From Olivibacter sp. XZL3 (GTDB taxonomy: Bacteria > Bacteroidota > Bacteroidia > Sphingobacteriales > Sphingobacteriaceae): a stretch of DNA of 64,000 nucleotides. The position numbers and the translations under genes were made by a program. The stretch covers positions 124,001 through 188,000 of the forward strand of contig NZ_SBJH01000042.1 in the NCBI RefSeq assembly GCF_004368405.1, in the 5' to 3' direction. Below the pieces are notes generated by a model. It searched no databases. It was not told where the DNA came from and saw nothing but the letters and a program-made list of their open reading frames with translations. Below, piece by piece: positions 60,152 through 63,786 of the stretch. Position 1 is the stretch's first letter. Each line of letters starts with the position of its first letter.

Positions 60152-60934
60152 TTAGAGCTCGCTCACAAACCTTTTAATTGATTCCGCAGGGTCAGCCGTT
60201 TTCATAAAATTTTCGCCGATTAAGAAAGCCTGAAATCCGGCTTCCTTCAACTGCCCAATAATAAGCGGATCGCTTATCCCACTTTCCGACACTTTTATAA
60301 AGGATTCCGGAATGCGATCCACCAAAGCTAAAGAGTGATCAATCGACACGGTAAAGTCTTTAAGATTCCGGTTGTTTACACCGATAGCGTCAATCGTATC
60401 GAATAAACTCGCTTCCAGTTCCTCTTCATTGTGTACTTCCAAAAGCACATTCAAGCCTAAATCCTTAGCATACTGAGCCAGCGACGCCACTTCTTCCTTG
60501 CTTAATGCCGCAGCTATTAGCAGGATAATGTCAGCACCGTATGCTTTTGCCTCAGCTATCTGGTATTCGTCAACGATAAAATCTTTCCTTAACAAAGGGA
60601 TTTTCAGCACTTCTCTAGCTCTTTTTAAATCCTCCAAACTGCCTTTAAAAAAATCTGCATCGGTCAAAACCGAAATAGCTGACGCTCCCGCTGCTGCATA
60701 ACCGCTTACCACCTCTTCAACAGAAACTTTGTCGTTGATGACACCCTTTGACGGAGAGGCCCTTTTATACTCAGCGATAATCCCAGTCTTGTTCGGATCC
60801 AGCACCGCATCCTTCAGGTTGTAACAAGTACGATTAAACAGTGGCTGTTGCATTAGATCAGCAATCGTCACCTTTGTTTTCGCAACAGCAAGTTCTTCCT
60901 TTTTCCTACCGATAATCTTATCCAGTATATTCAT
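60152..60934 (-). CDS. trpC: indole-3-glycerol phosphate synthase
   Basis: TIM-barrel enzyme of 260 residues closing the indole ring in tryptophan synthesis. It has the family start IIGRKKEELAVAK, the catalytic IIAEYKRASPSKGVI, LLRKDFIVDEYQIAEAKAYGAD, GVNNRNLKDFTV and KVSESGI. It follows trpG by 11 bp. The trpD, F, B and A genes are not here, so the pathway is split between loci. Confidence 0.97.
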   Translation of the reverse strand: MNILDKIIGRKKEELAVAKTKVTIADLMQQPLFNRTCYNLKDAVLDPNKTGIIAEYKRASPSKGVINDKVSVEEVVSGYAAAGASAISVLTDADFFKGSLEDLKRAREVLKIPLLRKDFIVDEYQIAEAKAYGADIILLIAAALSKEEVASLAQYAKDLGLNVLLEVHNEEELEASLFDTIDAIGVNNRNLKDFTVSIDHSLALVDRIPESFIKVSESGISDPLIIGQLKEAGFQAFLIGENFMKTADPAESIKRFVSEL

Positions 60935-60945
60935 ATGCCCATCGA

Positions 60946-61539
60946 TTATTTGTTCAACCAGTTTGCAATCATCCGCTTTCCATGTTCACTAAGAACCGAC
61001 TCAGGATGGAACTGCAATCCTCTTACATCATAGGTCTTATGAGACAAAGCCATGATCACCCCTTCATCATCAACAGCGGTCACTTCCAGTTCCTCGGGGA
61101 ATTGCTCATGAGCCACTGCCCACGAGTGATAACGCCCGATGCGGAAACGTTCCGGCAAATCTTTAAACAAAGGTTCTGTCGATTTTAAGACCTGCAGCGG
61201 CGTGGCCGTTCCATGTACCGGCTTTTTTAAATTGAACAATTTTCCTCCGTACACTTCCGCTATTGCCTGTTGCCCAAGACAAATACCGAGAATGCTTTTT
61301 GAGGCGCCATAAGTGCGGATAACATCCATAAGCAGTCCGGCCTCTTCCGGAATCCCCGGTCCCGGAGAAAGCAAGATTTTGTCGTAAGCCGCCACCTCTT
61401 CTATATTAAATTTGTCGTTTCTAATAACCGTGCAATCCATACCGCACTCTTGCAGCAGATGCACTAAATTGAAGGTAAAAGAATCATAATTGTCTACCAC
61501 CAAAATTTTGGGTTCAGTAGCAAGTTTTTTCTGCGCCAT
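60946..61539 (-). CDS. trpG: anthranilate synthase component II (glutamine amidotransferase)
   Basis: Class I amidotransferase of 197 residues that supplies ammonia to TrpE. It has VDNYDSFTFNLVHLLQ, the oxyanion motif SPGPGIPEEAG, the nucleophile in GICLGQQAIAE, and FHPESVLSEHG with the catalytic His. It may also serve PabB. It is separated from trpE by 141 bp, an unusually large gap for a trp operon, with an AT-rich sequence in between. Confidence 0.95.
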   Translation of the reverse strand: MAQKKLATEPKILVVDNYDSFTFNLVHLLQECGMDCTVIRNDKFNIEEVAAYDKILLSPGPGIPEEAGLLMDVIRTYGASKSILGICLGQQAIAEVYGGKLFNLKKPVHGTATPLQVLKSTEPLFKDLPERFRIGRYHSWAVAHEQFPEELEVTAVDDEGVIMALSHKTYDVRGLQFHPESVLSEHGKRMIANWLNK

Positions 61540-61680: not shown

Positions 61681-63093
61681 CTACAGCTCCTCGGCCAACG
61701 TTAACGCTTTCCTCAAAGCAGCTATTTTATTATTAACTTCATTTAATTCGCCTTCGGCTGAAGAGCCCGCCACAACACCGCCTCCAGCCTGATAATGCAA
61801 TCGATTATTCTTGCTCAGAAAAGTCCGGATCATAATCGCATGGTTGAAGTCGCCATCGAAGCCCATATAACCAATGGCCCCACTGTAAAAACCACGTTGC
61901 TGTTGTTCATACCTATCTATCAATTGCATGGCCATATGCTTCGGCGCGCCGCTCAAGGTACCGGCAGGAAAAGTATCTCCCACCACATCAAAGGGATTAG
62001 CACCCTCCTGCAAAGTACCACTCACCTTAGAAACCAAGTGGATTACATGCGAATAAAACTGGGCCTCTTTAAACGATTTGACCTCCACATCCACACAATG
62101 CCGACTCAAATCGTTTCTTGCCAAATCGACCAACATCACATGCTCAGCACTTTCTTTAGGATCATTTTTTAGCGCCTCTGCCACACGCAAATCCTCTGCC
62201 GTATTTCCTGTTCTTTTGAAAGTACCCGCTATCGGATATATGGATGCTTCTTTTCCCTTGATGGTCAATTGCGCTTCGGGTGACGAACCGAATAATTTAA
62301 AATTACCATAGTCGAAATAAAACAGATAGGGAGACGGGTTCACCGACCGTAAGCTTCGGTAAACGTTAAATTCGTCCCCTAAAAATGGACGGCTAAACGC
62401 TCGGGAAGGAACGATCTGAAAAACATCTCCTCTAAAAATGTGTTCCTTCGTTTTCTCCACCAAGGCTTTATAGCCTTCATCGGTTTTATTCGAGCTTTCG
62501 TCGCCATTCAGTTCAAATTTATACTCAGGGAAATTTTTGTTTTGTATAAGGTACTGAATCTTGCTCAACCCATCCTCCTCAGGCTCACCACAATAGTGCT
62601 CAAACACATAAAGCTCATTACGAAAGTGATCAATGGCAATTACATAGCGATAGACATGATACTGCAGAAAAGGAATATTCCGCGCCTCGTCTACGGGCGT
62701 TTCCAAGGTTATATCTTCAAAATGAGCTACGGTATCAAAAGTGAAATACCCGAATAGTCCGTTCGTGATAAACTTAAACTCCTCCGGTTTATCGGCCTTA
62801 AAAGACTGACGGAATTGGGACACTTCCTCTCTTAAATTTATACTATCGGCGGGTTTACTGGATTTTTGTCCATCAGGAAAATACACTTCCAGTTGATTTT
62901 CGTTGAGACTGATCCCCGCAATAGGCGAACAACAAACATAACTCATACTATTTTCGCGACTATGGTAATCAGAACTCTCCAACAGCAGACTATTCGGAAA
63001 CACATCCCTTAATCTTAAATATATACTAACCGGCGTGGTTGTGTCTGCCAATAATTTTTTAAATCTCGTTCGTAATTGATATGTGTCCGTCAT
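61681..63093 (-). CDS. trpE: anthranilate synthase component I
   Basis: Chorismate-utilising enzyme of 470 residues making anthranilate. The Trp feedback motif LLLESSD (around 35-41) is present, so allosteric inhibition by Trp is likely. The catalytic half carries [48 protein letters not shown] and [13 protein letters not shown]. It is the first structural gene of the operon, and its start lies 33 nt after an attenuator terminator. Confidence 0.97.
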
Positions 63094-63125: not shown

Positions 63126-63155
63126 AAAAAAACCCGACGTTATGCGCGTCGGGTT
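63126..63155 (-). terminator. trp attenuator terminator
   Basis: Minus-strand stem AACCCGACG/CGTCGGGTT (63155-63147 and 63139-63131) with a 7-nt loop, followed by seven U (63132-63126). It lies after the leader peptide stop and before trpE. Confidence 0.93.
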
Positions 63156-63224
63156 ATAAGTTTAAGGCTTTGGTTGATCAATCTATGCCATTATATGTGC
63201 TCCCGGCGCTGTTCTTAACAGGCC
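63147..63224 (-). promoter_or_regulatory. trp leader alternative RNA structures (1:2 and 2:3 pairings)
   Basis: Segment 1, GGCCTGTT (63224-63217), can pair with segment 2, AACAGCGCC (63213-63205), with one bulge. Segment 2 in GCGCCGGG (63209-63202) can instead pair with segment 3, CCCGACGC (63153-63146), with one mismatch. That removes the 5' arm of the terminator. Segment 1 overlaps the last Trp codon, so a stalled ribosome would favour the antiterminator. Confidence 0.75.
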
Positions 63225-63258
63225 ACCACCAGTTGCGTATAGTAGTATTGATCGTCAT
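63178..63258 (-). CDS. trpL: trp operon leader peptide
   Basis: Reading frame of 26 codons (ATG at 63258, TGA at 63178-63180) containing three consecutive Trp codons (63231-63223) in IRNWWWPVKN. It sits right after a consensus promoter, about 7 nt from the -7 box. It also precedes a terminator and trpE at classic spacing. This identifies it as the control peptide of a ribosome-mediated attenuator: with scarce charged tRNA-Trp, ribosomes stall at the WWW codons and transcription continues. Confidence 0.9.
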   Translation of the reverse strand: MTINTTIRNWWWPVKNSAGSTYNGID

Positions 63259-63265
63259 GATGAAG

Positions 63266-63295
63266 CAAACCTAATATAAAATTTTAATATTTCAA
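63266..63295 (-). promoter_or_regulatory. trp operon promoter
   Basis: Minus-strand TTG (63293-63295), exactly 19 nt, then TAGGTTTG (63266-63273), 7 nt before the leader ATG. It is a complete Bacteroidota promoter match. Confidence 0.85.
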
Positions 63296-63333: not shown

Positions 63334-63786
63334 TTAGATTCCCCAGAAAGAGATGAACCCCTTTCCTACCGCCATCTGGATAGCTATAAGTATCACAACG
63401 AGTGCAATGGTGTAAAACACGACAATGGCCTTATGTTTCGCAGATGATTCAATCGCTTTCTTAGATTTGGAGTGCCCAACGGTAATCAAAACAATCGCTA
63501 TCACCATCATGCTGATGTGCTCAACTGTCCAATACCTCAAATTAGCCGTTTTCATAACGGTGCTCATATCATTAAAGCTAACCATCGAACTCATTGTATA
63601 CAAAGCCAGGCCCACCAATAATTGAATGTGTGCGGAAATCAAGGTAAATAGATTCAATTTACGGTTGCCTTCGGTGTATGATTTTCTTCCTGTTAATCCG
63701 CTTATTGCTGAAATGATTGCTAATATTAACAATAGAAGAACCACATAACGTAGTCCTGAATGAAAATGTTTAAGTCCTGTATACAT
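63334..63786 (-). CDS. small four-helix membrane protein (cytochrome b-like)
   Basis: Protein of 150 residues with four predicted helices. Histidines occur near the membrane in GLKHFHSGLRYVV, LISAHIQLLVG, WTVEHISMMVIAI and VGHSKSKK, so heme b binding is conceivable. Similar proteins in Bacteroidota are sometimes labelled cytochrome b. It lies upstream of trp on the same strand with its own -7 box (TATTTTTG, 63810-63817). The redox partner is unknown. Confidence 0.65.
   Translation of the reverse strand: MYTGLKHFHSGLRYVVLLLLILAIISAISGLTGRKSYTEGNRKLNLFTLISAHIQLLVGLALYTMSSMVSFNDMSTVMKTANLRYWTVEHISMMVIAIVLITVGHSKSKKAIESSAKHKAIVVFYTIALVVILIAIQMAVGKGFISFWGI

Follow-up and report, generated by a model that had tools for sequence, protein, structure and literature searches.

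A tryptophan leader with a predicted near-leaderless start before trpE in Olivibacter and its relatives among the Sphingobacteriaceae

The trpEGC operon in a 64,000-nt stretch of the Olivibacter sp. XZL3 genome (hereafter the window) is headed by a short leader that is very probably a ribosome-mediated transcription attenuator sensing charged tRNA-Trp. Its elements, their conservation among relatives, the covariation of their pairings and a switch between folds that we reproduced in silico all point to this reading. Tandem end-product codons lie in a short ORF before the operon, and an intrinsic terminator lies between that ORF and trpE. Comparative support is strong, and judged by its sequence the leader appears to be a genuine Trp attenuator, ordinary in kind. 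Its interest lies in the breadth of the system, the two-operon arrangement, the near-leaderless start and a conserved linker rather than in its mere presence in Bacteroidota.

Anatomy of the leader in the Olivibacter window

A sequence-only reading of the window had proposed, upstream of trpE, a promoter of the form TTG-N19-TAGGTTTG, a 26-codon leader frame with three adjacent Trp codons, a 1:2 stem overlapping the last of these codons, a competing 2:3 pairing with one mismatch, and a U-tailed terminator followed by trpE. We found each of these elements in place on the minus strand at 63295-63126 of this member of the Sphingobacteriaceae (Bacteroidota), and the description was exact to each base. 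The features are as follows.

63293-63295, minus strand: -33 element TTG of a predicted Bacteroidota sigma-A promoter (63295-63266 as a whole), N19 from the -7 box; a similar TTTG lies ~19 nt upstream of the -7 box in many relatives
63266-63273, minus strand: -7 box TAGGTTTG (consensus TAnnTTTG), 7 nt upstream of the ATG; TAnnTTTG is free of mismatches in 75 of 82 relatives
63178-63258, minus strand: leader ORF MTINTTIRNWWWPVKNSAGSTYNGID, 26 codons plus UGA (ATG 63258; UGA 63180-63178)
63223-63231, minus strand: UGG UGG UGG (Trp), leader codons 10-12; WW, WWW or WxW in every Sphingobacteriaceae trpE leader examined
63217-63224, minus strand: strand 1 GGCCUGUU, pairing with AACAGCGCC as the 1:2 hairpin and overlapping the last Trp codon (from sequence and folds)
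63202-63213, minus strand: strand 2 AACAGCGCCGGG, with its core GCGCCGGG at 63209-63202; strand 2 starts ~12-20 nt past the last Trp codon in most leaders
63166-63178, minus strand: linker AUCAACCAAAGCC between strands 2 and 3, a conserved motif in Sphingobacteriaceae leaders
63146-63153, minus strand: strand 3 CCCGACGC, partner of strand 2 (antiterminator) or strand 4 (terminator)
63126-63155, minus strand: intrinsic terminator AACCCGACG-CGCATAA-CGTCGGGTT with a U tail (from folds, relatives and 3:4 covariation)
63133-63139, minus strand: strand 4 CGUCGGG, pairing with CCCGACG and followed by U7 at 63132-63126
61681-63093, minus strand: trpE, anthranilate synthase component I, the first regulated gene (ATG 63093)
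60946-61539, minus strand: trpG, anthranilate synthase component II, in the trpEGC operon
60152-60934, minus strand: trpC, indole-3-glycerol phosphate synthase, in an operon without trpD

In the window, strand 2 (GCGCCGGG) pairs with strand 3 (CCCGACGC) with a single mismatch, C.A, and a gap of 32 nt separates the terminator from the trpE ATG. Because the UGA lies past strand 2, the leader ORF extends through that strand, ending 22 nt upstream of the terminator. The ORF of E. coli trpL does not run through strand 2; we had expected the window leader to stop in the same place, between strands 1 and 2, and it does not.

The fold of the window leader is more than chance. The whole leader folds at -44.0 kcal/mol, compared to -31.5 +/- 3.4 for shuffled sequences (z = -3.7), and the 2:3 duplex, at -13.9 (shuffled mean -8.2), was equalled by 1 of 100 shuffles. 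The minimum-energy fold is a large hairpin, GAUCAAU...AUUGAUC, around the whole ORF. We do not regard this hairpin as central, because it is absent from the consensus folds outside Olivibacter and needs no ribosome.

The leader start is predicted to be near-leaderless and lacks a Shine-Dalgarno sequence, in a phylum without Shine-Dalgarno initiation. In 77 of 82 Sphingobacteriaceae relatives, 5-8 nt separate the end of the -7 box from the start codon. The mapped -7 box of F. psychrophilum lies at -12 to -5 (PMC9723704), and the same placement in the window would put +1 at ~63261, predicting a 3-nt 5′ UTR. By this analogy, the Sphingobacteriaceae trpE leader transcripts are predicted to have 5′ UTRs of 1-4 nt. 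Transcripts of this kind are rare within Bacteroidota; ~3.7% of 5′ UTRs in B. thetaiotaomicron are shorter than 10 nt (PMC7366714), and leaderless mRNAs make up 5.5% in F. psychrophilum (PMC9723704). The best -7-like site in the other families lies 4-21 nt upstream of the ATG, and the near-leaderless spacing, typical of Sphingobacteriaceae trpE, is not universal there.

Farther upstream, the window contains a same-strand ORF of 150 codons (63334-63786), hydrophobic-rich and with no NCBIfam match. Its end lies ~38 nt from the -33 box, and transcripts from upstream may read through into the leader.

Conservation and covariation among relatives

DNA upstream of trpE was compared at 83 Sphingobacteriaceae loci and later in a set of 89 leaders from the family, in which a few genomes occur twice. 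The closest TrpE relatives come from Olivibacter, followed by Parapedobacter, Daejeonella, Sphingobacterium and Pedobacter, and the window genome groups with four genomes of its own genus. In-frame tandem Trp codons with a start codon are present in all 83 leaders of the first set, 82 of them ATG-started; the other (L050), read by eye, begins with GTG (VIANLNTLNRWWLFLKESAGQGI as translated) at an unchanged promoter distance. Past its Trp codons, the peptide shows no conservation in the family. A sister genome (L084) has one extra A after WWW, which shifts the frame (PVKEQRREHI compared to PVKNSAGSTYNGID) and leaves the Trp codons and strand 2 unchanged. It is apparently the Trp codons and the RNA strands that are under selection.

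The survey of the class sampled 197 Bacteroidia genomes, 63 of which gave a strong TrpE match, and upstream DNA was taken for 54 loci outside Sphingobacteriaceae. A Trp-tandem leader stands directly before trpE at 44 of these loci, 43 of them with a script-found terminator. Four trpB-first operons (L172-L175), in which trpB lies directly upstream of trpE, carry the leader at the head of the operon, before trpB, for a total of 48/54 loci with a leader, spread over 21 families in addition to Sphingobacteriaceae. Of 133 leaders, 132 have a terminator downstream, at a distance of 47-87 nt from the last Trp codon. No Trp-tandem leader was found at the six other loci among the 54 (L096, L097, L139, L121, L100 and L129); L121 is cut off by a contig end, and no leader was seen at L100 and L129. 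The trpE loci L096, L097 and L139 keep a terminator-like hairpin and, by eye, a short ORF with a single Trp (W-C-C in L139), and may be leaders in decay or with altered tuning.

The genome contains 62 matches to a loose promoter-ATG-TGGTGG pattern, against 40 for the reversed control; the pattern alone thus proves little, and we used conservation in its place. One other in-frame WWW match in the genome (C94) lies inside a long coding frame and was discarded.

To assess pairing, we aligned 58 non-redundant leaders from Sphingobacteriaceae with MAFFT, without a structure reference. The 2:3 pairing reaches 78.8%, compared to 74.7% for column shuffles and 74.5% for row swaps (0/500 as high), figures that are indicative because the shuffles ignore relatedness, which inflates covariation statistics. 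Sliding strand 2 by 1-3 nt lowers the pairing to 28-42% (45 non-WxW leaders). Two-sided changes occur at three 2:3 pairs (25 cells), and the 3:4 pairing stands at 90.0%, with 23 cells of two-sided change. Typical states of strands 2/3 are GCGUCGGG/CCCGACGU, GCAUCGGG/CCCGAUGC and GCGCCGGG/CCCGGCGC. The C.A mismatch is shared by 14 of the 58 leaders, the window included, and the 2:3 pairing is weak in some WxW Pedobacter leaders.

Across families the strand sequences differ (e.g., UGAACAGC/GCUGUUCA), and strand 2 still mostly begins 12-20 nt past the last Trp codon. Own 2:3 pairs average -13.5 kcal/mol, compared to -10.8 kcal/mol when strands are swapped among 20 families. When leaders were tested singly, a test of low power for one short duplex, no more than 5 of 100 shuffles equalled the pairing in 79/132. 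The antiterminator 2:3, in competition with the terminator, is evolutionarily maintained, with a minority of weak or mismatched cases.

The linker between strands 2 and 3, AAUCAACC[A/U]AAACC, has its core in 61 of the 89 Sphingobacteriaceae leaders and in 0 of 43 from other families. In Sphingobacterium it is partly pairable with the UGG repeats; the motif is also present in WxW leaders, where this pairing is poorer.

Ribosome position and rival explanations

We folded the leaders with positions -15 to +15 relative to the P site covered by a ribosome and with the RNA ended before strand 4. An antiterminator was scored at ≥5 strand-3 nt in the stalled test, and the stop-codon count used a cut-off of 4 nt. 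With the ribosome placed at the last Trp codon, the antiterminator forms in 127/132 leaders (85/89 in the family and 42/43 in other families), compared to 44-55% for shuffles (shuffled spacers, 44% and 55%, respectively). Measured against the stop-codon position, the gain is 5.7 nt in the family and 5.4 nt in the others, against 1.7 and 1.9 in shuffles. With the ribosome at the stop codon, the antiterminator forms in 34 of the 132 leaders; it also forms in 44 of them with no ribosome. The window leader adopts GCGCCGGG:CCCGACGC under a stalled ribosome and the 1:2 hairpin under a ribosome at the stop. By these outcomes, strand 2 starts just clear of the region that a ribosome covers when it stalls at the last UGG. 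In the folding model, the geometry is that of an attenuator, in which a stall would free strand 2 and a ribosome at the stop codon would not.

The sequence-only reading had suggested, among other checks, an alignment of related trpE leaders and constrained folding of the leader, and had held that a lack of covariation in the two pairings would speak against it. The alignment bears it out, with the Trp codons and both pairings conserved and both pairings covarying; in the folds, stalling leads to the antiterminator, which is mostly absent when the ribosome has reached the stop codon. Its attenuator interpretation thus fits the conserved Trp codons, pairings, terminator and spacing, and the ribosome-position folds switch as it expected in silico.

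In the mechanism that we infer, from the transcript start through translation of the ORF and its coupling to transcription to the Trp response, RNA polymerase would start a few nucleotides before the leader AUG, and a ribosome would load on the nearly leaderless start, which lacks a Shine-Dalgarno sequence. When Trp is scarce, the ribosome would stall at UGG UGG UGG, its footprint covering strand 1 and ending before strand 2. Strand 2 would then pair with the emerging strand 3, the terminator would be blocked, and trpEGC would be transcribed. When Trp is plentiful, the ribosome would pass through strand 2 to the UGA, so that strand 2 would be occupied and afterwards captured in the 1:2 hairpin; strand 3, left free, would form the 3:4 terminator, ending transcription before trpE. 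The model assumes transcription-translation coupling in Bacteroidota.

Terminator/antiterminator pairs are common to TRAP-like, T-box, riboswitch and attenuator systems, and a protein or small molecule might govern these hairpins, with the Trp-rich ORF incidental; the conserved linker in the leader would suit such a regulator. We found no match to TrpR (PF01371) or TRAP (PF02081) in the genome, with the same models positive in control genomes, and no T-box or riboswitch in the window at Rfam gathering scores. In addition, the in-frame tandem Trp codons are kept in 22 families while the remaining peptide drifts or shifts frame, and we consider control of this kind very unlikely. Still less credence goes to a constitutive premature terminator, which would hold trpE at a low basal level with no Trp response. 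The strength of the leader fold even without a ribosome agrees with it, but the covarying antiterminator and the restricted spacing between the Trp codons and strand 2 would be purposeless in such a terminator.

The released leader RNA or peptide might also act in trans, like rnTrpL/peTrpL of Sinorhizobium meliloti, which would be compatible with attenuation. A small mRNA with a terminator, predicted to be near-leaderless, resembles rnTrpL (PMC7298713), and the linker is conserved in Sphingobacteriaceae; against a function of the peptide stands its lack of conservation past the Trp codons, and we judge such an added role improbable. Ribosome-mediated attenuation remains our preferred reading of the leader.

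A second trp leader and comparison with known systems

The pathway of Olivibacter is split into trpEGC and trpDFBA, with trpD sitting elsewhere together with trpF, trpB and trpA; in a single-contig genome of the same genus (G004), the trpE and trpD loci are ~2.9 Mb apart. The Rfam model RF01692 matches a leader MKTTFAHINWWWHKG in the window's genome (G000:C41:7443-7568, L182), and in sister genomes it also matches the counterparts of this leader, which stand right before trpD. Because trpD stands at a contig end in the window's genome, the C41 leader is linked to it by synteny only. Among Sphingobacteriaceae, a Trp-tandem leader precedes trpD at 28 of 29 assessable loci (trpD loci L183-L189 and L190-L218). 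Upstream of trpD at L219 (genome G202), a terminator-like hairpin is kept and the Trp-tandem ORF was not found; the control codons seem to have been lost there.

Since Trp leaders stand before both operons, one signal probably reads out both pathway halves via different leaders. A broader proposal, which we offer tentatively and with more doubt than conviction, is that in Sphingobacteriaceae the split Trp pathway is wholly under two ribosome-sensing leaders without a known Trp repressor, that the trpE leader, near-leaderless and outside Rfam, takes on its ribosome once its 5′ end emerges, and that the linker AAUCAACC[A/U]AAACC is an additional control element.

Leader-peptide Trp control would thus operate at the majority of the Bacteroidia trp operons sampled, far beyond the reach of the Rfam model, and in Sphingobacteriaceae before two unlinked trp operons at once. 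Because a ribosome would have to load with almost no 5′ UTR, in a phylum that does without Shine-Dalgarno initiation, the leader would be a natural reporter of how such ribosomes initiate and how closely they trail RNA polymerase. A new covariance model could be built directly from this uncatalogued group of leaders. What is new is that RF01692 misses the Sphingobacteriaceae trpE leader type, that the start codon lies 5-8 nt past the -7 box in nearly all of these leaders, and that two split trp operons each have their own Trp leader, with the conserved linker. Attenuators in Bacteroidetes were reportedly predicted by Vitreschak et al. in 2004; Naville and Gautheret (2010) make no mention of Bacteroidetes.

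An empty Rfam gathering scan of the window had suggested an unknown element, a view given up when an E-value scan of relatives returned RF01692 (Bacteroid-trp), described in 2010 by Weinberg et al. (PMC2864571). Like the window leader, Bacteroid-trp combines a Trp-codon peptide leader and a terminator upstream of Bacteroidota trp genes. The analysis supports the E. coli-style logic that the sequence-only reading saw in a different phylum, but the surprise that the reading implied was overstated, because Trp leaders have been known in Bacteroidota since 2010 through RF01692. The model fits the trpE leaders of one family (f52), the leaders of the trpB-first operons and the Olivibacter trpDFBA leaders; several Bacteroidia families besides Sphingobacteriaceae have leaders that it fits. 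At the window trpE leader, it gave no match at E ≤ 10 and did not reach its membership threshold of 49 bits, and none of its matches coincided with any of the 11 trpE leaders from Sphingobacteriaceae for which both searches gave coordinates. In its predicted working the window leader resembles both an E. coli-type attenuator and Bacteroid-trp, but the threshold set for RF01692 leaves it outside that family.

The E. coli trp attenuator (RF00513, Trp_leader) shares with the window its Trp codons at strand 1 and the logic of 1:2, 2:3 and 3:4 pairings; RF00513 scores 16.7 bits on the window leader, below its gathering score of 41. Compared to E. coli, the window leader has a predicted near-leaderless start without a Shine-Dalgarno sequence, WWW rather than WW and an ORF that runs through strand 2, and belongs to a genome in which no TrpR was found. 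Within the phylum, work on F. psychrophilum in 2021 reported strong clues to attenuation by leader peptides ahead of amino-acid operons, in another family and with tryptophan not named in the main text (PMC9723704). The S. meliloti trpL-trpE(G) system resembles the window leader in its consecutive Trp codons, and its start at or near the AUG and its attenuation without repression match what is predicted for the window leader (PMC7298713). It differs in phylum and promoter, and only trpE(G) of its three trp operons is attenuated (PMC7298713), whereas in Olivibacter both operons have Trp leaders. Pseudomonas putida, with trpE and trpGDC attenuators (Olekhnovich and Gussin 2001, as cited in PMC8297930), offers, as far as that citation goes, a parallel to the split pathway and the attenuation of more than one trp operon that we propose for Olivibacter, although in Olivibacter the split is a different one, into trpEGC and trpDFBA.
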